Assembly: GCF_007858975.2 (NCBI RefSeq)
Contig: NZ_CP042220.2
Coordinates: 1,426,001 to 1,490,000, forward strand
DNA from: Dickeya poaceiphila
GTDB taxonomy: Bacteria > Pseudomonadota > Gammaproteobacteria > Enterobacterales > Enterobacteriaceae
Direction of reading: 5' to 3'
DNA length: 64,000 nt
The first letter of the stretch is position 1. Each line of letters opens with the position of its first letter. The translations under genes were made by a program, and so were the position numbers. The notes beneath the pieces are model-generated. The model was not told the DNA's origin and did no database searches. It was given only the letters and a program-made list of their open reading frames with translations. Positions 20,729 through 58,665 of this stretch are shown here, piece after piece.

Positions 20729-22756
20729 TTACTGCTTACGTATGATATTACTATTAAAATGTAAAAGATTTACATGTAAACCTTCTAACATCGAGATTAA
20801 ATCGTTATACTTTTCACTAGTCCCCATTATAATCTGTTTTTCCTCTAGATATGATTCTGACGCTTTTTTAATAAACGTCTTGAAACTAACATCTTTTGTT
20901 TCCTGCTGCCTAGGTTCATCCATAATAAGCAATCCCAAATGATTAGTAGATATTTCATTTGAGTCTAACATTAATAATGAATATAAATATGACCAAATAA
21001 CCCTAATATTATCACTGGCAGATGCTTCAGAGCCAATATCTATGCCGTCAATAGTAGGTTTATAGGTATTACTCGATAAGCTAAAATTTTCTATTGGAGT
21101 GCTTTTGTACCCAAAATCTTGTAAATTAGACTTAAATGAATCCCTTAATAACTTTAACTTTAAATTATCTCTATGGGTAAAACCATCATACGGAAGCGTT
21201 GTCAATTTATTATTACACTCGCTCCAGTCGGAAATAACCGCGAGAAGAGTATCTTTTTTACTTAACTCATAATTTAAAAGTGAATTTAAATTTTCAATAT
21301 CTTTTTCTAATTTTACTTCTTTTCTTATCAGCTCTCTAATTTCTGAATTTATCGGAGAGGAAATACTACGTTGAGTCTCCTTGACTTGGTAACGTAAATC
21401 TCGAACTCTAGCATTAGCAACTTTTAATGTTGCTTCTTTCTTTTCAAATTTTGATTTTTCACTTCTTGCTAAACTATTGAAAACAGCCAAAGTCTTTTCA
21501 AGATATTTGATGTTATCTTCAATAGTTAATATTTTACCATCTAAGGTTGCTGGCAAAAGCGTATTTTCTATAGTTTGCCCACAGGTTGGACAACTCCCCT
21601 CAACAAAAGAAAATTCCTCTTGTGAACCTAATAGCTGAAGTTTCTCAATATCTCTATATTTCCTCAAGCTTTCCTTTGTATCATTCAGACTTCTATTTAT
21701 TGAGATAATATACTGTCTATTAGACTCTATATCTGATATTAATAATGAGAGCGCATTTTCATGATTTTCTAAACTTGCTCTAAGATTATCAAGCACTAAA
21801 TCTAGCGACCCATTATTTGATATATCATCATTATTTAATTTTCTTTTAACTATTTCCAATTCCTTTTCATGGTTAGATTTTTCTTGTGACAATGAAATTT
21901 CACGATTATTTTCATCCAATGTATATAAATCACTATCCTGATAGATCTCAGATCTCGCTGTGATTTTCTCTGGTATTCTTCTTGATACAAAAAAACCATA
22001 CGCTTTTGCATTAGACTCTAAATCTGAAAGTGTATTCAGCCATTTAGTCTCTTGATTTTTCTTTTCATCCAAATATATCTCTCGCTTTCTTCTAATCTCG
22101 CGAATATCCAGATCAAGAGTATATTCAAGAATATTCTGTGACAAATCCTTTATGCCAAGATAAGTAGGGGTAATGTTTAATATACCTCCCCAACCTCTTG
22201 TCTGCTCTACGTAATTAACAGTAAATATTGACTCAATATATAATGGACATTTGGTTCCATCATATTTTAGGACTTGAGGTTGCTTAATCCCTAAATAATT
22301 TGATAGGAAGTAATGAAAGCCTTTTTCTCGCTGTGCAGAGCCGGGATCTTTTAGAAAATAATCAGTGAATTTCTGTGGATTTATTCTGTCAAACTCGCAA
22401 TCAAAAACGGTAACTATTTTTGAAGCATCACTATCACTTTTTCTTAAAATGGTAATTGTCTTTGAATTTTTATTAGCAATTTGGAGGTATATTTTTGATT
22501 CATTAACTGGAATTTCATTATCATTATAATCCCTTAATTTAGTTGTTAGCGCAGATTTTAAAGGATTGTTTCTCGATGGCCCCAAAATACCTTCCAATCC
22601 TAATGCATATATTATTGATTGTATACAGGTAGATTTACCAGAAGAATTCTCTGCACTTATTATATTTAAGCCATAGTCAAATTTGAGATCTGTTCCATAA
22701 ATCCCATCACTTGTACTTGTTCTAATTATCAACCGTTCGATTTTAAGCCTGCTCAT
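20729..22756 (-). CDS. Rad50/SMC-like ABC ATPase with zinc hook (ABC three-component system)
   Basis: 675 residues. The N-terminal half-ATPase has the Walker A AENSSGKST at about 35-43. Two long coiled-coil arms flank a zinc hook SCPTCGQT at about 395, and the C-terminal half has the Walker B GLLIMDEPRQQE. This is the Rad50 layout at roughly two thirds of Rad50 length. Such ATPases are the defining part of ABC three-component conflict systems. There a wHTH-like middle protein and a nuclease-like effector are encoded next to them. The two upstream genes fit those roles. The start overlaps the previous stop by 4 bases (ATGA). I infer anti-phage or anti-plasmid defence. Confidence 0.8.
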   Translation of the reverse strand: MSRLKIERLIIRTSTSDGIYGTDLKFDYGLNIISAENSSGKSTCIQSIIYALGLEGILGPSRNNPLKSALTTKLRDYNDNEIPVNESKIYLQIANKNSKTITILRKSDSDASKIVTVFDCEFDRINPQKFTDYFLKDPGSAQREKGFHYFLSNYLGIKQPQVLKYDGTKCPLYIESIFTVNYVEQTRGWGGILNITPTYLGIKDLSQNILEYTLDLDIREIRRKREIYLDEKKNQETKWLNTLSDLESNAKAYGFFVSRRIPEKITARSEIYQDSDLYTLDENNREISLSQEKSNHEKELEIVKRKLNNDDISNNGSLDLVLDNLRASLENHENALSLLISDIESNRQYIISINRSLNDTKESLRKYRDIEKLQLLGSQEEFSFVEGSCPTCGQTIENTLLPATLDGKILTIEDNIKYLEKTLAVFNSLARSEKSKFEKKEATLKVANARVRDLRYQVKETQRSISSPINSEIRELIRKEVKLEKDIENLNSLLNYELSKKDTLLAVISDWSECNNKLTTLPYDGFTHRDNLKLKLLRDSFKSNLQDFGYKSTPIENFSLSSNTYKPTIDGIDIGSEASASDNIRVIWSYLYSLLMLDSNEISTNHLGLLIMDEPRQQETKDVSFKTFIKKASESYLEEKQIIMGTSEKYNDLISMLEGLHVNLLHFNSNIIRKQ

Positions 22757-23217
22757 ATAATTCCATTATATAATATCTGATCAATTTTTTTGTCTGAAAA
22801 TTCAGATTTACTATAGTTTTCAATGAACTCTTTCTCAAAAACAAATAATGTTGAATCTTTATAAATTTTTTTAGACAAAAGAGTTCCTTTATTAGTCAAA
22901 ACAACACTTTTTGCTGTGTCTAGCGAGAACACCCCTTCCGCCAATCCCAACGAAATCGCTTTATCCAATAGCGGATCAAAACGAATGCTAATATCTGAGA
23001 AAGCTCCCTCAGAGAGATATCGCGATCTTTTATCAGCAGATGCGATTAAAGAATATAAGACTTGTATTTTTTTCAAACTTGCAGAGGAACCTCTACATAG
23101 TTTGTTAAGAATAATAGTGAGTAAGGATATTCTCCAAATGGGGCGCAATTCCGGCTCAACAGGCGATCCAGTTGAGTTAAAAGTCATCTTTTCAGGAGTT
23201 ACTTTTAAAAGATCCAT
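22753..23217 (-). CDS. Middle component of ABC three-component system
   Basis: 154 residues, compact and helical, with ELRPIWRISLLTIILNKLCR at about 22-41 and a winged-helix-like block RFDPLLDKAISLGLAEGVFS followed by VVLTNKGTLL. Middle components of ABC-3C systems are small proteins of this kind. They sit between the effector and the ATPase genes. The spacing (2 bases from the gene before, 4-base overlap with the gene after) shows tight coupling. Assigned by context and shape rather than a diagnostic motif. Confidence 0.6.
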   Translation of the reverse strand: MDLLKVTPEKMTFNSTGSPVEPELRPIWRISLLTIILNKLCRGSSASLKKIQVLYSLIASADKRSRYLSEGAFSDISIRFDPLLDKAISLGLAEGVFSLDTAKSVVLTNKGTLLSKKIYKDSTLFVFEKEFIENYSKSEFSDKKIDQILYNGII

Positions 23218-23219
23218 GA

Positions 23220-24119
23220 TTAAAAATCCAAATTACAACGCATTAGCCAATCACCAACTACTCCAGTTGAGATACATTTTAGATTATCTTGATGAAGGCG
23301 ACTAAATTCTTTAAGTTTATTATTTAGAAATTCAATTTGCTGATTCGGAGCCAAAATATTAGCATCAAAAAATGCTAAAGACAAATCTTGCTCGCGATCC
23401 AGAATACCGTTTGTTATTTTCTCATGTAAAATTGGATAGTTATCTTTAAGATCGCTCATAATATTTTTATACATAACAATATTTCTTAATAGCATTGTTG
23501 ATGCATTCTGAACTTGGCTTTCATCATTCCTGATTTTTCTAAGTTTTCTTGATATATTATCGCCAAACTCACTGCTATCTTTGAGATGAAAAATATCAGA
23601 CATATCCACTCGTGGTACTTCAATTTTCAATAATCTAAGCCCACTGCTAATTAACTCGTCCTCTTCTTTTTTAAAATTATCTCGATCCCAAATCAATACT
23701 TTAAAATCATCCTTATCGATATAAGGTAATTCAGCTGATAAAATATCACTTTCTTTATTTGTTGCATGCACATTCAAATTTTTTGATAAATGTCTTGGTA
23801 CTACTAAAATCCAACGCTTTATTTTTGTGTTTTTTAATATATTTTTCAAATAACCATTTTTATCTAAAATAAATTTTCCAACATCCGCTGTCATTTTATC
23901 TCTTTGTTTATCATACAACTTATCAACCGTACATGCCTCATCGGGACAATAAGACTGAAATGCATACCCTTGTATGCAATATCCCTCAATTCCTGCATCC
24001 CCATTATGAAAATCAGGTATCGGAATATAATTTTCTTCTCCGAATTTAAGCCGGAGAAGATCATTGACGTGACTTTCCCATTCCTTTGCTTCCCATACTT
24101 TATTTTTTGATATTTCCAT
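23220..24119 (-). CDS. Effector of ABC three-component system, restriction-endonuclease-like
   Basis: 299 residues. The N-terminal region (WESHVNDLLRLKFGEENY, then GDAGIEGYCIQGYAFQSYCP) resembles an Mrr-like fold. There GDxGIDG and a [EQ]-x-K strand form the active site. Here the last position reads F-Q-S-Y, so the usual Lys is missing and activity is uncertain. A middle strand-rich part (KRWILVVPRHLSKN) and a helical C-terminal half follow. It is the first gene of the three-gene operon. I infer the effector role from position. Confidence 0.6.
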   Translation of the reverse strand: MEISKNKVWEAKEWESHVNDLLRLKFGEENYIPIPDFHNGDAGIEGYCIQGYAFQSYCPDEACTVDKLYDKQRDKMTADVGKFILDKNGYLKNILKNTKIKRWILVVPRHLSKNLNVHATNKESDILSAELPYIDKDDFKVLIWDRDNFKKEEDELISSGLRLLKIEVPRVDMSDIFHLKDSSEFGDNISRKLRKIRNDESQVQNASTMLLRNIVMYKNIMSDLKDNYPILHEKITNGILDREQDLSLAFFDANILAPNQQIEFLNNKLKEFSRLHQDNLKCISTGVVGDWLMRCNLDF

Positions 24120-35714: not shown

Positions 35715-36878
35715 TTACATCGCATTCTTTATTTCCCCGATTATCCCTTGTGCCGTATTTTTGCCATTCTTGGCAAAAATGCTGTCTATTTGTTTGGCGT
35801 GTTGAGTTAAATGATTTGGCGACAGATGTGCATATCTGCGTACCATTTCTATCGACTCCCAGCCGCCCATTTCTTGTAATGCAGATAAAGGTACGCCGGA
35901 TTGAACTAACCAGCTCGCCCACGTATGACGCAAATCGTGGAAGCGAAAGTTTTCAATTCCGGCCCTTTTTAAGGCAGCATTCCAAGCCTTATTTCCGTCA
36001 ACTCTTAACTTTCGTATTTCTGGCGTTTTTTCACCATTAGGCTTTGTCGTTGATATTTCATGAACGAATACCCAACGGTGATGCTTTCCGATCTGCCCCC
36101 TCAATACTCCGCACGCCGTATCGTTCAACGCGACGCCGATCGCCTTTCCTCCTTTTGCATTTTCTGGATGAATCCATGCCATCTTTCTCTGCATGTCCAC
36201 CTGTGACCACTCAAGATCTAGGATGTTAGACCGCCTCAACCCGGTTGCCAGTGCGAAAGTAACAACCGATTTCAAATGGTCTGGAAGGCAGTCGATCAAC
36301 TGCCGTGCCTCGTCATGCGTAAGCCAACGTATCCGCTTGTTTCTCGGCTGCCGCGCTTTCACCACTGGCACCGAGTTAAGCCATCCCCATTCGTTGGCCG
36401 CTATCCGTAGCAGAGCACGCATGAAGGCCTGAAACGAATACTTGGTCGATTCAGATATCGGCTTTGGACTGTACGCTGGAACTGATTTCCCTTCTCGCTT
36501 CAACCTGTCCCGCATTTCTTCCCAGCGCTCCCTGTGCTTTCTATCGTACGCCTTGGATATCGCCACCTGAATGTGATCATTCGTTATCGTAGATAACTCC
36601 CGTCCGTGAAAGTGATCGAGAAAAAACGTTATCTTCGACTTGTCTGCATCCAGTGAACGCTTGTGCGATTTCTCGCGCAGCCACCGAATGCACGCCTCAT
36701 CGAACAGCTTTACCGGCGCTTCACCCAGCTTTGCAGACCGCCACGAATCGGCTTTCAGCTTGTCGTGGAGTTCCTGCGCCTCTCGCTTGTCTTCCGTGCC
36801 AAGAGACTGTCTAACTCGCTTACCGTCCGGCGTAGTGAAATCACAGTGCCAGACACCGTTCCGTTGTTTGATTGACAT
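35715..36878 (-). CDS. int: Prophage tyrosine integrase
   Basis: 387 residues, starting MSIKQRNGVWHCDFTTPDGK. Catalytic parts: ATGLRRSNILDLEWSQVD (Arg), HDLRHTWASWLVQSGVPLSA (H-x-x-R), GGWESIEMVRRYAHLSPNHL (Tyr). It integrates and excises the prophage at the adjacent tRNA-Lys. The start overlaps the upstream xis-like gene by 124 bases in another frame. It is the last gene of the long leftward operon. Confidence 0.95.
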   Translation of the reverse strand: MSIKQRNGVWHCDFTTPDGKRVRQSLGTEDKREAQELHDKLKADSWRSAKLGEAPVKLFDEACIRWLREKSHKRSLDADKSKITFFLDHFHGRELSTITNDHIQVAISKAYDRKHRERWEEMRDRLKREGKSVPAYSPKPISESTKYSFQAFMRALLRIAANEWGWLNSVPVVKARQPRNKRIRWLTHDEARQLIDCLPDHLKSVVTFALATGLRRSNILDLEWSQVDMQRKMAWIHPENAKGGKAIGVALNDTACGVLRGQIGKHHRWVFVHEISTTKPNGEKTPEIRKLRVDGNKAWNAALKRAGIENFRFHDLRHTWASWLVQSGVPLSALQEMGGWESIEMVRRYAHLSPNHLTQHAKQIDSIFAKNGKNTAQGIIGEIKNAM

Positions 36879-45100: not shown

Positions 45101-45174
45101 CTATGGCGATGCGGTGAGATACAAACAATGTCTGTATATTCGCACCCCGGTGTTGGCGTCACCGCATCCCATAG
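45101..45174. ncRNA. Long hairpin between phage genes
   Basis: Left arm 45101-45117 (CTATGGCGATGCGGTGA) pairs with 45159-45174 (TCACCGCATCCCATAG) with one bulged C. That gives a 16-bp stem with a loop of about 41 bases. No gene covers it. It could be a processed RNA, an attenuator in the leftward transcript or a DNA palindrome. Confidence 0.4.
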
Positions 45175-46004: not shown

Positions 46005-46946
46005 TTACTCGAAGGGGAATTCAATTTGCCGTTGTGGGTTTATGATCTTCTTAACATTCACAATTTCATAGGTAGTCTTGATGCCTTTCTCTGCTAGATA
46101 CTGCGTTACTTTCAAATCAACTAGCAAGAGATCACCCTTAGCAAAGGCTATTGATTGGTCATCAATAGCCTTTAGGAATCGTTCATCACTAACTTCAGCT
46201 TGAAATGGGCTCGCTCCATCTGAAAACTGCCACTTGTGTCCTTCACGAAAAGAGATATCTAAGGGTTGAAGTGCTTTCTCAGTAATGGACTCAGATATTA
46301 TTGATTCTTCTATGTTATCAACTTTGAAAAATATCGCTTCGTCTTTACTGACTTCAACAAAAGTTTTCCCGTTGTCGATGGTGACGGCGAAACTGTCGAT
46401 ACCATCTCTCTCTAAAGGTTTAGTGATTACATTTTCAAGAGATCGCCTTAATTTTTTGTTTTTATATAATTCAATAACTTGAGACTCAAAAACCTCACTT
46501 TCACCATCAGTGAAAATCTCTGTGCAGCCATCAAATGTTGGTTCTATTCTTTTTATCTTTCTTGGCCCCAGCCATTTGATTAACTGGAGCAGACCTTTAT
46601 AAGACTGTTTTGATGCTAAATATCCAAACCCAACCAGGCTTATTATGTTGCAGGCAGCAGAGGCACTATTGCCAGAAAAAGCTCCGATTATTTGGCTGGT
46701 TAGTGATGATGATTGAGCTATGAGATCGACGCCGAAAGATCCAGCTTTAAAAGAAGCATTTACCTTTACTGATACGCGCCTTTCTTTTCCATAGATTGTC
46801 TTTCCCGCCTCCTCTAAAGCATCAGATAGCGACAGAAGGGCAGGTGCCAAATCGCGGACATCCATCTCATGGTTGTCTAGGGCTGGGCCGTCATAAACAA
46901 TTCTGAACTTCATGTCGTCTGTTTCCGCAATTCCACTTGCTTCCAT
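46005..46946 (-). CDS. Lysogen-expressed accessory protein (moron), unknown function
   Basis: 313 residues from the ATG at 46946, with AGGTG 8 bases upstream. The conserved-looking opening is MKFRIVYDGPALDNHEMDVR, then DLAPALLSLSDALEEAGKTI and VKVNASFKAGSFGVDLI. A hydrophobic stretch (NIISLVGFGYLASK) lies near 105-118, then a soluble strand-rich C-terminus. The gene lies directly downstream of the CI-type repressor on the same strand, so it should be transcribed in the lysogen. Genes placed there often protect the host against other phages. I do not recognise a named defence family. Confidence 0.65.
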   Translation of the reverse strand: MEASGIAETDDMKFRIVYDGPALDNHEMDVRDLAPALLSLSDALEEAGKTIYGKERRVSVKVNASFKAGSFGVDLIAQSSSLTSQIIGAFSGNSASAACNIISLVGFGYLASKQSYKGLLQLIKWLGPRKIKRIEPTFDGCTEIFTDGESEVFESQVIELYKNKKLRRSLENVITKPLERDGIDSFAVTIDNGKTFVEVSKDEAIFFKVDNIEESIISESITEKALQPLDISFREGHKWQFSDGASPFQAEVSDERFLKAIDDQSIAFAKGDLLLVDLKVTQYLAEKGIKTTYEIVNVKKIINPQRQIEFPFE

Positions 46947-47028
46947 TATGGCATTCACCTGATCTCATATACAGTAAATTTACTGTTTGCTGCCTATTGA
47001 AGTTCGCACCAACACCCACCGCCTGTGG

Positions 47029-47742
47029 CTAGTAATCTATTACAGACCACCAGAATACGCGCCCGATAATCTCTACATTTGAGATGGCGGCTTCTTCTGG
47101 CGGGTGTTCTGCGCTGTTATAGCTGCGTATACTCAATGTATCCGGCCCGGTCCGGTACAGTAGTTTTATGCGTTTCCAGCCATCTTGATTTATTGCGTAT
47201 ATTTTTCCATCAACTATTTTTTTGTCGTCAATGTTGACGGCAACAGTTGTTCCGTCTGGTATGTTAGGCTCCATACTGTTACCCCTTGCGGGAAAACAGA
47301 AAATTCCAGACCCATCAGTATTAGCGCCAACCCGGCGCAAAGTGGCTTTCGAAAATCTCAATTTGAATCCGTTATAATCGTCTTCTGATATTCGACCATC
47401 TCCAGCGGCGAGTTCTATGTCACGCAAAAATGGAACTTCGACCTCGTCGCTAGGTAGTGGTGTTTTTTTATCCCATGCATCAACTGTATCCCACTCTGAT
47501 TCCGGTGGAACTGTGGACTCTCTATTGATGATTGGCTTTGGGCTACCTGTCCCATCAAGAACCCACTCTAAGGAATAGCCATACATTTCAGCTATTTTTT
47601 TTGCTGCGTCCTTGCTGATCGAGTTTCGTTTTTTCCAGTTATTTACTGTTTGAGGTGTGGCATTGACCATTCGGGCTAGGTCTTTTTGCCTAATCCCTTC
47701 ACTATCAATGATGTATTCGATTCTGTCTTCAGCTGTTTTCAT
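47029..47742 (-). CDS. CI-type prophage repressor (XRE plus S24 peptidase)
   Basis: 237 residues from the ATG at 47742 (MKTAEDRIEYIIDSEGIRQK), with GGAG upstream. The helix-turn-helix is QKDLARMVNATPQTVNNWKK. The C-terminal LexA-like part has a possible A-G cleavage site in LAAGDGRIS, the Ser in PARGNSMEPNIPDG, and a Lys in WKRIKLLY. It should repress both early promoters and be inactivated after DNA damage through RecA. Its start is next to the operator cluster at 47766-47838. Confidence 0.92.
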   Translation of the reverse strand: MKTAEDRIEYIIDSEGIRQKDLARMVNATPQTVNNWKKRNSISKDAAKKIAEMYGYSLEWVLDGTGSPKPIINRESTVPPESEWDTVDAWDKKTPLPSDEVEVPFLRDIELAAGDGRISEDDYNGFKLRFSKATLRRVGANTDGSGIFCFPARGNSMEPNIPDGTTVAVNIDDKKIVDGKIYAINQDGWKRIKLLYRTGPDTLSIRSYNSAEHPPEEAAISNVEIIGRVFWWSVIDY

Positions 47743-47765
47743 GGCGATCTCCATATCACAAAATA

Positions 47766-47838
47766 TAAACATATTGTTTATTCACATCCATCATCATTAT
47801 GTTGATTTATTCCAGCTAAGGAGTTAACATTACGTTGA
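47766..47838 (+). promoter_or_regulatory. Right operator cluster, three 7-1-7 palindromes
   Basis: Three sites share one pattern: TAAACATATTGTTTA (47766-47780), TCATCATTATGTTGA (47791-47805) and TTAACATTACGTTGA (47824-47838). They lie between the divergent CI and Cro-like genes, as OR1-OR3 do in lambda. The consensus is about T-[CTA]-A-[AT]-CAT-N-ATGTTGA. Confidence 0.8.
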
Positions 47839-56110: not shown

Positions 56111-56217
56111 AATATCTTCCTTACATTCTGACTTTGTTTGCACCAATAATTCCGGCGGTTAAACCGGCGCATTATCAGTCATGGGATGCATATCCAGAGC
56201 GGAGGAAATCCAAGTGA
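56107..56217 (+). CDS. 36-residue phage peptide
   Basis: MKYLPYILTLFAPIIPAVKP with a weak hydrophobic N-terminus, then HYQSWDAYPERRKSK. Start and stop overlap both neighbours (ATGA, GTGA), which supports translation. Confidence 0.5.
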   Translation: MKYLPYILTLFAPIIPAVKPAHYQSWDAYPERRKSK

Positions 56218-57026
56218 ATCTAGAATCAATTCCTAAATTTTTCTCGCCGAAATCACCAAAACTCTCCGACGAATCACCGGCAACAGCAAGCGACAGATTA
56301 GGTATCAGTGATGTGATGGCCGCTATCGGCATGAGTCACCAATCTAGCGGCATTGGGATGGATTTGTTTCTCGCTAAAATCGGGGTAAGCAGCCCTGATA
56401 AAGCCATTGAGGGGTTGATAGAGATTGCAAAAAGTCTGGCGGGACACTGCAAACCTCTTTCAGAACTCGATGCAGATAGTAAACTGCGAGCGCTGCAATT
56501 GCTCGCAACATTTGCATATCATGACTATGCGCGTAGTGCTGCAAGCGTAAAGCGTTGCCCTGACTGCGATGATGGGTTTATCGACGTGGAGGTGTTCAGT
56601 CTGAAGGCGGCGTATGGAAAACGCGTCATTGATGCTATGCCGAAAATCGAAATGCTGGATAAACCGCTAGCTTGCAATGTTACTCACGAACGGCGCGAGA
56701 TAGTCCGTGTGCAATGCCCGACCTGCAAAGGAAGGGGGTTGGTCAGTAATTCATGCCGGTGCCGTGGACGCGGAATTGTGATTGATGAGCGGGCTACAGC
56801 GATAAATGGCGGAATACCGGTGACAAAAGAATGTGAGCGGTGCCACGGCACTGGATACTCTCGATTGCCAGCTGAGAGCGTCCGCAGGGCGCTATGTGCC
56901 GCTGGCGTTGAGATATCACAGCCGACATGGTCACGCCATGTAAAACCGATGTATGAGCGGCTCGTTTCGGCGTGTCATCAGGCGGAATCAACTGCAGAGA
57001 TTAATTTGAGGCGCGTTACCAGTTAA
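56214..57026 (+). CDS. Late antiterminator Q
   Basis: 270 residues with a GTG start at 56214 (NLESIPKFFSPKSPKLSDES) and GGAGGAAAT upstream. The centre has several zinc-site pairs: RCPDCDDGFIDVE, CPTCKGRGLVSNSCRCRGRG, CERCHGTGYSRLPAESVRRA. This is the phage 82/21-type antitermination protein with DnaJ-like Cys repeats. It lets RNA polymerase pass the late terminator at 58292-58320. Here about 1.1 kb of cargo lies between it and that promoter. Confidence 0.88.
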   Translation: MNLESIPKFFSPKSPKLSDESPATASDRLGISDVMAAIGMSHQSSGIGMDLFLAKIGVSSPDKAIEGLIEIAKSLAGHCKPLSELDADSKLRALQLLATFAYHDYARSAASVKRCPDCDDGFIDVEVFSLKAAYGKRVIDAMPKIEMLDKPLACNVTHERREIVRVQCPTCKGRGLVSNSCRCRGRGIVIDERATAINGGIPVTKECERCHGTGYSRLPAESVRRALCAAGVEISQPTWSRHVKPMYERLVSACHQAESTAEINLRRVTS

Positions 57027-57123
57027 TTCGCCTTGAAGTCGATGCGTGCTCACATAGCGCTCACATGGTTGGGCGCTAATCGAATTGGCTGAATGCGCAG
57101 AGAAAAATAATTCGTCCGCCATC

Positions 57124-57152
57124 TTGATGTATAACCATAAAGTGGTTATAGT
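57124..57152 (+). promoter_or_regulatory. Promoter 1 with palindromic operator in the spacer (acr/aca operon)
   Basis: TTGATG (57124-57129), a 17-base spacer, TATAGT (57147-57152). The operator TATAACCATAAAGTGGTTATA (8-bp arms, 57130-57150) fills the spacer and reaches into the -10. Promoter 2 at 57879 has the same design. Such placement lets a small repressor block polymerase directly, as Aca proteins do. Confidence 0.75.
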
Positions 57153-57184
57153 TAGGCCATCAAAACGAGGTTGAGGCCCAAAAA

Positions 57185-57682
57185 ATGAAACTGTTTCACG
57201 GCTCATGCAGTACCGTAGCTCCAGCAATAAAAGTTGGCGCATTCGAAATGCTCGGTGCTAGCGAAAACGTATTTGATGGCATCTTTGCCAGCGGCGACTG
57301 GGACGCAGCGGCATCCCACGGAAACGGTAACATTTTTACATATATTGTTGATGAAGAAAGGGTGGCTGAATCACGCGACTTGGATGCCAATTTTGAGGAG
57401 ATAGTAAGATTTCTGCTCGATCAATATGAAATTAATTCTGAAAACATGGATAGAGTTAATGAATTAGCCCGCGCAATAGTTGATGACGAAAATCAAGATG
57501 ATGAATTTGCTGATGTATTGTTATTTCCTCGGCTCGGATCTGATATCGGGGGTGCATATTCGTGGGAAATTCAACGCCTACGCGGTCGCGTTGCGGCGCA
57601 CCTTGGTTTTGATGCTGTAGAAATGAGAGACGAGCACGGCACCAGTTATTTAATCGTTAACCCAAAAATAACGGCAGAATAA
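57185..57682 (+). CDS. AcrIF11-like ADP-ribosyltransferase, candidate anti-CRISPR
   Basis: 165 residues. MKLFHGSCSTVAPAIKVGAF, FDGIFASGDW, a middle acidic region, then YSWEIQRLRGRVAAHLGFDA and VEMRDEHGTSYLIVNP. AcrIF11 of Pseudomonas (132 residues) has the same order: IFHTSP at the start, then LSWEIQ, LGF, MQDEQGACYMI at the end. That protein ADP-ribosylates the type I-F Cascade complex and blocks PAM recognition. Matching the N-terminal strand, the SWEIQ helix and the D-E-x-G acidic strand supports homology. Context agrees: cargo placed after Q, its own promoter with operator, and an HTH gene 1 base downstream. Alternative: another small phage ART acting on a host protein. Confidence 0.68.
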   Translation: MKLFHGSCSTVAPAIKVGAFEMLGASENVFDGIFASGDWDAAASHGNGNIFTYIVDEERVAESRDLDANFEEIVRFLLDQYEINSENMDRVNELARAIVDDENQDDEFADVLLFPRLGSDIGGAYSWEIQRLRGRVAAHLGFDAVEMRDEHGTSYLIVNPKITAE

Positions 57683-57683
57683 T

Positions 57684-57866
57684 ATGAAATTAGCCGATTA
57701 CATCGATCAGAATTTTGGCGGTAGCCGGGCAGAATTCGCTCGCCACATGGGTGTTCCACCACAAAAAATCACAAAGTGGCTATCGTCTGAAACGATAGTC
57801 CACATCGACGATGATGGAAGGGCATTCCTCTGCACCGTCAGAAGAGAGATACCCGTCACAAAATAA
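57684..57866 (+). CDS. Small HTH protein, candidate anti-CRISPR-associated (Aca) repressor
   Basis: 60 residues. KLADYIDQNFGGSRAEFARH, MGVPPQKITKWLSSE is a Cro-type helix-turn-helix, followed by a short strand pair (IVHIDDDGRAFLCTVRR). It starts 1 base after the AcrIF11-like gene, the order of acr-aca operons. The likely targets are the two palindromes at 57130 and 57886. Similar small phage regulators occur outside acr loci, so the Aca role is inferred. Confidence 0.65.
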   Translation: MKLADYIDQNFGGSRAEFARHMGVPPQKITKWLSSETIVHIDDDGRAFLCTVRREIPVTK

Positions 57867-57878
57867 ACCATCCGCACG

Positions 57879-57907
57879 TTGACACATAACCATTAAGGGG
57901 TTATATT
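57879..57907 (+). promoter_or_regulatory. Promoter 2 with the same operator design
   Basis: TTGACA (57879-57884), a 17-base spacer, TATATT (57902-57907), close to consensus. The operator ATAACCATTAAGGGGTTAT (57886-57904) differs from copy 1 in a few bases and has one arm mismatch. The downstream bases GCCATCAA[GA]ACGA also match promoter 1, so the whole block of about 45 bases is duplicated. Confidence 0.78.
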
Positions 57908-57959
57908 GAAGCCATCAAGACGAAGCGACACACATTCAATCACAAATAAGGGCTACATC

Positions 57960-58141
57960 ATGAAAAATGGACAGTTTTGCTGGATGATGACACCGTTGGT
58001 ACAGTTAATGAAGACACAATCGACGGCGACCTGAATGATTTTATCGGAGAGACTCTTAATGTCCACTTGCGCGATGAGAATGGCAATCCGATAGAAAAAA
58101 CTGGGAAAATCGTTGAGATTCTGGATGAAGAAAACATATAA
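57960..58141 (+). pseudogene. Frameshifted acidic mini-gene under promoter 2
   Basis: ATG at 57960 has AAGGG 7 bases upstream, but its frame stops after 24 codons. The next frame, open from 57962 to the stop at 58141, reads KWTVLLDDDTVGTVNEDTID, GDLNDFIGETLNVHL, RDENGNPIEKTGKIVE, ILDEENI. One extra A in the run of five A after the start codon would give a clean 60-residue protein. So this is a fresh frameshift, a slippage site or a sequencing error. The protein is strongly acidic. A two-strand barrel-like pattern is likely. Its own promoter shares the operator of the AcrIF11-like gene, so it is a candidate anti-CRISPR or related cargo. Confidence 0.6.
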
Positions 58142-58194
58142 ACCCATGACAACCCAGTACACGCCGCTCCAGCGGGGTTTTTATTTTGTATATA

Positions 58195-58222
58195 TTGACA
58201 CCTGAATAGATTTGGTTAATAT
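58195..58222 (+). promoter_or_regulatory. Probable late promoter (pR'-like)
   Basis: TTGACA (58195-58200), a 16-base spacer, TAATAT (58217-58222). It is followed 70 bases on by a strong terminator, the arrangement of a Q-controlled late promoter with its leader terminator. Confidence 0.6.
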
Positions 58223-58291
58223 AAGCACAACAATGCGGAAATTGCGTGTTGTTATTGTACTGGATTTATTTGTAGCAATAAAAAGAATTCA

Positions 58292-58320
58292 AACCCCAGC
58301 TCAATTGCTGGGGTTTTTTA
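58292..58320 (+). terminator. Strong terminator (tR'-like)
   Basis: Stem AACCCCAGC / GCTGGGGTT with a 6-base loop, then TTTTTA. It lies between the late promoter and the lysis genes, so late genes need antitermination by Q. Confidence 0.85.
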
Positions 58321-58371
58321 TTTCCGCGCTCCACGGGCGCTAATTCTCTGGCCGCCTAACGGGTGGAGCAC

Positions 58372-58665
58372 ATGTACGATGGACAGCAACTCATTGCTGC
58401 CCTGATCGCTGCCGCTATGACCCTGATAGGGTCTGTAGCCAAATATGCATACACATCATCAAAAAATGTTCCGATTCGAAATCACATAGTTATTTCAGCG
58501 TTTGCTGGGGCAATGATGTATTTGCTCGGCATTCAGCAAGGCTGGAGCTTGCCTTTGGTTGGTATGTGTTGCGGGTTGGCTGGGTGGCATGGGGCATCGA
58601 TTATCCGGCGAATAAATCCGCCCGGTGTGAACATTAACGGTGATGACGATGGTCGGAAACAATGA
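58372..58665 (+). CDS. Phage holin-like membrane protein
   Basis: 97 residues from the ATG at 58372, with GGGTGGAG upstream. MYDGQQLIAALIAAAMTLIG, then HIVISAFAGAMMYLLGIQQG and LVGMCCGLAGWHGASIIRRI give three helices. First gene after tR', the usual holin position. Confidence 0.7.
   Translation: MYDGQQLIAALIAAAMTLIGSVAKYAYTSSKNVPIRNHIVISAFAGAMMYLLGIQQGWSLPLVGMCCGLAGWHGASIIRRINPPGVNINGDDDGRKQ

Follow-up and report, generated by a model that had tools for sequence, protein, structure and literature searches.

The window, a 64,000-nucleotide stretch of contig NZ_CP042220.2 of Dickeya poaceiphila, contains a lambdoid prophage in which a cassette of approximately 1 kb lies between the gene for the Q antiterminator and the lysis genes. 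Considered as a whole, this cassette is in all likelihood an anti-CRISPR (acr) operon of the AcrIF11–Aca5 type, Aca denoting an anti-CRISPR-associated protein, together with a second Aca operator before a small gene. It comprises promoter P1 with operator O1, a 165-residue open reading frame (ORF), a 60-residue helix-turn-helix (HTH) ORF, promoter P2 with operator O2, a small ORF, and a stem (Table 1). The acr–aca pair adds one more ordinary example to a system already described, and the new part is the regulatory second operator.

O1 (TATAACCATAAAGTGGTTATA) is the palindrome TATAACCA-TAAAG-TGGTTATA at 57130–57150, with perfect arms of 8 bp, located within the TTGATG-17-TATAGT promoter and overlapping its second hexamer. 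The palindrome score was reached by 0/200 dinucleotide shuffles of the core promoter zone. A preliminary description of this DNA had noted an 8-bp-arm palindrome in the promoter spacer. O2 (ATAACCATTAAGGGGTTAT) sits in the P2 spacer as O1 does in that of P1, and the two promoters also have in common a stretch close to where transcription is expected to begin. When the operator pattern was searched in the whole 4.3-Mb genome allowing at most one mismatch, two sites only were found, O1 and O2, and the reversed control of the pattern gave zero sites in the same genome at the same tolerance. The preliminary description had ended the feature at 57866, an end that is set too early, since the second operator and promoter (57879–57907) lie beyond it, before the small ORF. 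This arrangement is reminiscent of acr–aca promoters that carry two inverted repeats, IR1 and IR2, as described in part of PMC9410906, in which two similar repeats are presumably also read by one Aca. However, IR1 and IR2 occupy one promoter region, whereas the window has one repeat per promoter, flanking the acr–aca operon. Among open-licence PubMed Central papers, nothing relevant to a second Aca-controlled promoter was found.

The complete dual-operator layout is also present on another viral contig, which holds loci L120 and L128. In L120, a perfect site (987–1005) is followed by a run of four ORFs, the aca gene (2729–2923), a second site (2927–2945), and then the small ORF; 0.18 sites were expected at two or fewer mismatches, and two were reached in 3/200 shuffles. 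No AcrIF11 match was found upstream of this aca gene, consistent with an aca–O2–small ORF block that is kept while the cargo differs. The exact P2 motif was detected in two viral contigs, namely, this one and one other in which the window's acr, HTH, and small ORF recur unchanged.

A single base separates the TAA of the acr ORF from the HTH ORF (start at 57684), as the preliminary description had it. Its closest PHROG is phrog_10103, of unknown function (E 1e-7); only four relatives were found at E ≤ 0.001 in a large protein search, a phmmer search of solved structures returned weak homeobox matches alone (E 0.17 and worse), and a profile built from six relatives gave nothing at E ≤ 0.1 against solved structures. 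The aca5 gene is described in part of PMC7648647 as lying 3′ of several acrIF11 orthologues and as enriched in Enterobacteriales, Aca5 is listed in PMC9410906 as a 60-residue protein of Pectobacterium carotovorum (WP_039494319.1), and inverted repeats inside the core promoter are reported there for each Aca family. The window locus shares with this reference the length of 60 residues, a small HTH gene directly 3′ of acrIF11 (1-base gap) in Enterobacterales, and an inverted repeat within the acr–aca core promoter; unlike Aca5 as described, it has an additional operator past the aca gene, in front of a further ORF. By size, place, and operator, the HTH gene very probably encodes a repressor of the Aca5 type. 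An HTH relative was present in 36/43 loci having at least 45% Acr identity, the window and duplicates being counted, and subtraction of seven AcrIF11-relative loci without an HTH match and four duplicates from these 43 left 32 non-redundant acr–HTH pairs. Within these 32, a −35/−10 pair was found at the expected place in 30 loci, the window included, using a lenient pattern, and a core-zone palindrome reached by at most 5% of shuffles was found in 20, one of which (L063) has a different palindrome. Downstream of the −10 element, near the expected transcription start, 13/32 loci share an ATC(G/A)AAACG stretch, of which variants are seen in other loci and in P2.

The operator type (ATAACC, ATAATC, ATAGTC, or GTAGTC/GTAATC) varies together with the HTH recognition helix. 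With a widened operator pattern that kept 27/32 loci (L011, L054, L065, L068, and L069 being dropped), operator distance was correlated with HTH distance when Acr distance was held (partial r 0.61, 0/2000 permutations, n = 27), as opposed to a value of 0.11 for operator distance versus Acr distance when HTH distance was held (235/2000 permutations, n = 27). An earlier, narrower pattern, which kept 15/32 loci, gave a partial r of 0.71 (0/2000 permutations). The window follows the same rule: among 15 loci, its Acr is nearest to L042–L044 (67–68%), whose operators are ATAGTC, and its HTH protein is nearest to L047 (60%), whose ATAACC operator is of the same type as that of the window, followed by a tie at 57% of L004 and L070 (ATAACC) with L045 and L046 (ATAGTC). 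Across the 27 loci, operator sequence tracks the HTH protein and not the Acr; with this and the mere two sites in the whole genome, O1 is very probably the operator of the 60-residue protein, the predicted aca partner of the acr gene. Co-variation supports binding and does not prove it, because permutation leaves relatedness among the loci in place. Setting operator types against HTH helices in this way makes DNA recognition by Aca proteins directly testable with natural pairs.

The 165-residue protein is, by sequence comparison, an AcrIF11-family ADP-ribosyltransferase (ART). It matched NCBIfam NF052490.1 with 116.2 bits versus a cut-off of 50 (residues 1–157 on profile positions 1–142 of 142) and has MKLFHG at residue 1, SWEIQ at 126, LGF at 140, and DEHG at 149, so that the likeness to AcrIF11 noticed earlier, with start, SWEIQ, LGF, and D-E-x-G in order, is upheld by family model and fold alike. 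Solved AcrIF11 chains 6KYF and 8DWQ were matched by phmmer. In the alignments, D149/E150 fall on 146/147 of 8DWQ and on index 120/121 in 6KYF, and the latter two would correspond to D115/E116 given five extra residues in the 6KYF chain; D115 in Pae1 and D146/E147 in Pae2 are the catalytic acidic residues according to part of PMC12421852. The DEHGTSYLIVN strand, invariant in the family, is intact, and the reading frame is open. A predicted model of the protein has an ART fold like that of 6KYF (28–29% identity in structure alignments), with the two solved AcrIF11 structures ranking first and second. Shared with AcrIF11 of Pseudomonas (AcrIF11Pae1, 6KYF; AcrIF11Pae2, 8DWQ) are thus the family model, motif order, catalytic D-E pair, ART fold, and prophage location, while the Aca5-type partner gene sets the present gene apart. 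An ART/RES-like toxin paired with an HTH protein acting as antitoxin and autorepressor, i.e., a toxin–antitoxin pair instead of an anti-CRISPR, is a very improbable reading of such a locus: the score is far above the AcrIF11 equivalog cut-off, the AcrIF11 structures place well above RES in the comparison with the predicted model, and AcrIF11 is reported in PMC12421852 to be specific for Csy1. A new AcrIF11 subgroup, suggested in the preliminary description from the length of 165 residues, was rejected because 107/120 proteins among the relatives listed, this one included, have 150–169 residues; the solved 8DWQ chain has 167 and that of 6KYF 137. Across the host genus, AcrIF11 was found in 1/9 genomes, namely that of the window, and when an AcrIF11 locus from another contig was compared with E. 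coli genomes, nothing closely similar was found. A scan of genome contigs returned no loci with a single-protein query and ten with an alignment query.

The host genome has type I-F genes, including Csy3 (452 bits) and a Cas8f that matches Csy1 of 9IRF (E 1.1e-184), and cas3-, cas5f-, and cas6f-like open frames surround the Cas8f gene, as judged by eye from position and sequence. In the alignment, N259 of host Cas8f occupies the position of N250 in P. aeruginosa Csy1 (5UZ9), a residue that PMC12421852 names as the AcrIF11 target, and K247 is replaced by N256. Three host arrays contain 23 repeats of I-F type. A 33-nt spacer of the third array (L014, G000:C1:783.4–783.6 kb) matches the prophage perfectly at approximately 45123–45155. 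The 32-nt spacers of arrays 1 and 2 gave no window match at six or fewer mismatches, nor did the last, 33-nt spacer of array 1 match the window, and in BLAST against the whole genome no match spanned an entire spacer of arrays 1 or 2. The preliminary description had suggested looking for a type I-F system with self-targeting spacers in the same genome; the I-F genes and one perfect spacer are present, and the consensus protospacer-adjacent motif (PAM) is absent. A cas1-like frame of the host (L013, 9260–9838) stops after 192 residues, as seen by eye, with the sequence continuing in another frame; for that reason, the host may no longer be capable of adaptation, with its interference genes still open.

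The gene family, catalytic residues, two operator-bearing promoter-like sites, co-variation, and dual layout in a second phage are observations, from which enzyme activity, repression, and use of P2 are predicted as follows. P1 would express an AcrIF11-family enzyme that, with nicotinamide adenine dinucleotide as substrate, modifies Csy1/Cas8f in the type I-F surveillance complex by ADP-ribosylation of the Asn corresponding to N250 (N259 in host Cas8f). AcrIF11 modification stops this complex from recognizing target DNA. The 60-residue Aca5-type protein would bind O1 inside P1 and close the operon after an early burst, and would likewise bind O2 in P2, so that the small beta-rich ORF would form a transcription unit of its own, controlled by this one repressor.

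Intact copies of the small ORF are known from L128/L120. Eight database proteins, that of the window counted, are related at E ≤ 0.001, and, apart from the window and L120/L128, viral contigs and genomes yielded seven further loci; a wider alignment yielded no additional viral locus. Across 392 genomes of the bacterial family, two carry the ORF (the window's own and one other), and 47 plasmid records contain homologues, 35 of these records being from Klebsiella and 10 from Escherichia. For P0126, an intact relative, AlphaFold2 gave a confident model of a small beta protein, and this predicted structure had no clear structural match. Linkage to aca was judged in 11 distinct loci. In the window and L128, the small ORF is downstream of aca, behind O2. 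In L038, from another genus, 39 bp separate a 54-residue homologue from the Aca5-like HTH gene that follows it in one operon, whose promoter resembles the AcrIF11-operon promoter of L069. In L150 (E. coli plasmid p133-1, after 2165), 20 residues that are left of an Aca5-like N terminus come after the homologue (score 46, 0/2000 shuffles; the next best of 194 locus peptides scored 30). Linkage is weak in L125, where the homologue is followed by an XRE-type HTH gene passing the HTH_31 and HTH_3 cut-offs, with Aca2_YdiL (E 0.0013) and other HTH families below their cut-offs. No aca-like neighbour was recognized beside the homologue in L121–L124 and L126, and in L151 an annotated HTH regulator lies on the opposite strand at a distance of over 1 kb. 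The small ORF qualifies as a candidate gene for a new anti-CRISPR or anti-defence protein. Candidates in PMC7648647 were restricted to genes upstream of aca5, so a gene placed like the small ORF would have fallen outside that search. Control by one Aca of both the acr–aca operon and a separate unit encoding a small beta-rich protein (54–60 residues) of a new anti-CRISPR or anti-defence family is put forward tentatively. As a separate observation, the first gene of the L038 operon is a 55-residue ORF (1262–1426) with no family match.

Several observations weigh against the overall reading of the cassette. Promoter-like sites occur at chance frequency (4 found versus 4.0 expected in shuffles), P1 and P2 being set apart by the shared operator in their spacers and not by the promoter scan. 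Among the 32 non-redundant loci, 12 have no significant core-zone palindrome and five lack the common operator pattern. No Aca5 model was among the NCBIfam, Pfam, and PHROGs matches of the 60-residue protein, and the N-terminal part of the acr fold model is poor (residues 1–3 and 5–46 with pLDDT, the per-residue model confidence, below 50). The lone self-targeting spacer found has GC, not CC, at its 5′ flank, and inhibition of the CRISPR system is thus not required. As the first base of this spacer is C, it may have arisen from a CC site by slipping one base; a consensus PAM is given for 83% of I-F self-targeting protospacers in part of PMC7648647. The self-match is compatible with an active Acr and does not demand one. 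This equivocal self-targeting, together with a helical region that is divergent in the family and is suggested in part of PMC12421852 to set specificity, would fit an AcrIF11 member inactive on the host I-F system, whether decayed or retargeted to another Csy variant. However, the open frame, the catalytic pair and invariant strand that it retains, and the target Asn kept in host Cas8f make such inactivity improbable. An own-type second site downstream of aca was found in only 2/43 distinct HTH loci scanned from −900 to +600 (the window and L128), a downstream site in L064 being of another half-site type, and in the window an in-frame ATG is missing where the small ORF would be expected to start. 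Because the ATG that follows P2, at 57960, is in a different frame from the conserved body, this copy may be broken or inactive. Both observations would suit O2/P2 being a functionless relic of promoter duplication and the small ORF a dead passenger, an outcome regarded as rather unlikely, given that P2 is nearer to consensus than P1 (11 versus 9 of 12) and that the O2 half-sites are kept in both phages having O2, one of which has other upstream cargo and an intact ORF.

If the proposed dual control is true, repetition of an aca operator elsewhere in a phage would provide a sequence handle for anti-defence genes, and searches limited to regions upstream of aca genes would miss such genes. The second operator nominates one small protein family for testing.

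Table 1. Features of the cassette and of the surrounding prophage (window coordinates).
Feature	Position	Strand	Description
Promoter P1 of acr–aca operon	57124..57152	+	TTGATG-17-TATAGT, 9/12 consensus
Operator O1	57130..57150	.	TATAACCATAAAGTGGTTATA; 8-bp perfect arms, in P1 spacer, overlaps −10
acrIF11-family gene	57185..57682	+	165-residue ADP-ribosyltransferase; family model, phmmer, catalytic residues, fold
aca gene (Aca5 type)	57684..57866	+	60-residue HTH protein, predicted autorepressor for O1 and O2
Promoter P2	57879..57907	+	TTGACA-17-TATATT, 11/12 consensus
Operator O2	57886..57904	.	ATAACCATTAAGGGGTTAT; in P2 spacer, half-sites as O1
Small ORF behind P2	57960..58141	+	Conserved body is 54-residue frame 57977–58141, TTG start
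Weak terminator-like stem with T-tail	58166..58178	+	3′ of small ORF
Integrase	35715–36878	-	PHROG
CI-like repressor	47029–47772	-	PHROG
Q antiterminator	56181–57026		Pfam Antiterm, E 3.5e-38; upstream of acr gene
Late-promoter-like TTGACA-16-TAATAT	58195–58222		Promoter scan; downstream of cassette
Holin	at 58363		PHROG; downstream of cassette

Genes for Q, a holin, a CI-like repressor, and an integrase surround the acr gene, and the cassette is prophage cargo between Q and the late promoter, where the preliminary description had put it. Terminator-like sites in 56900–58500 numbered three versus 1.5 expected in shuffles.

Other loci with Aca5-like HTH genes hold further candidate Acrs. Ten proteins encoded upstream of such genes gave no NCBIfam match above cut-off, and three of them had no match in the Protein Data Bank at E ≤ 0.01. 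The four ORFs between the Aca operator and aca of L120 (1041–2732) belong to no named family in the libraries tried and are candidate Acr genes. Two recurring families lie directly upstream of Aca5-like HTH genes, one in L130, L133, and L135 (88/86 residues) and one in L134 and L145 (169/170 residues); one scanned member of each had no family match, and both are candidate Acrs. Elsewhere in the window, two adjoining genes at 20729–24119 (- strand) matched the LmuB (E 1.1e-97) and LmuA (E 6.3e-28) models and probably form a Lamassu-type defence system near the prophage, and a PDC-S42 candidate defence gene (E 1.5e-85; 46005–46958, - strand) lies inside the prophage beside the repressor.
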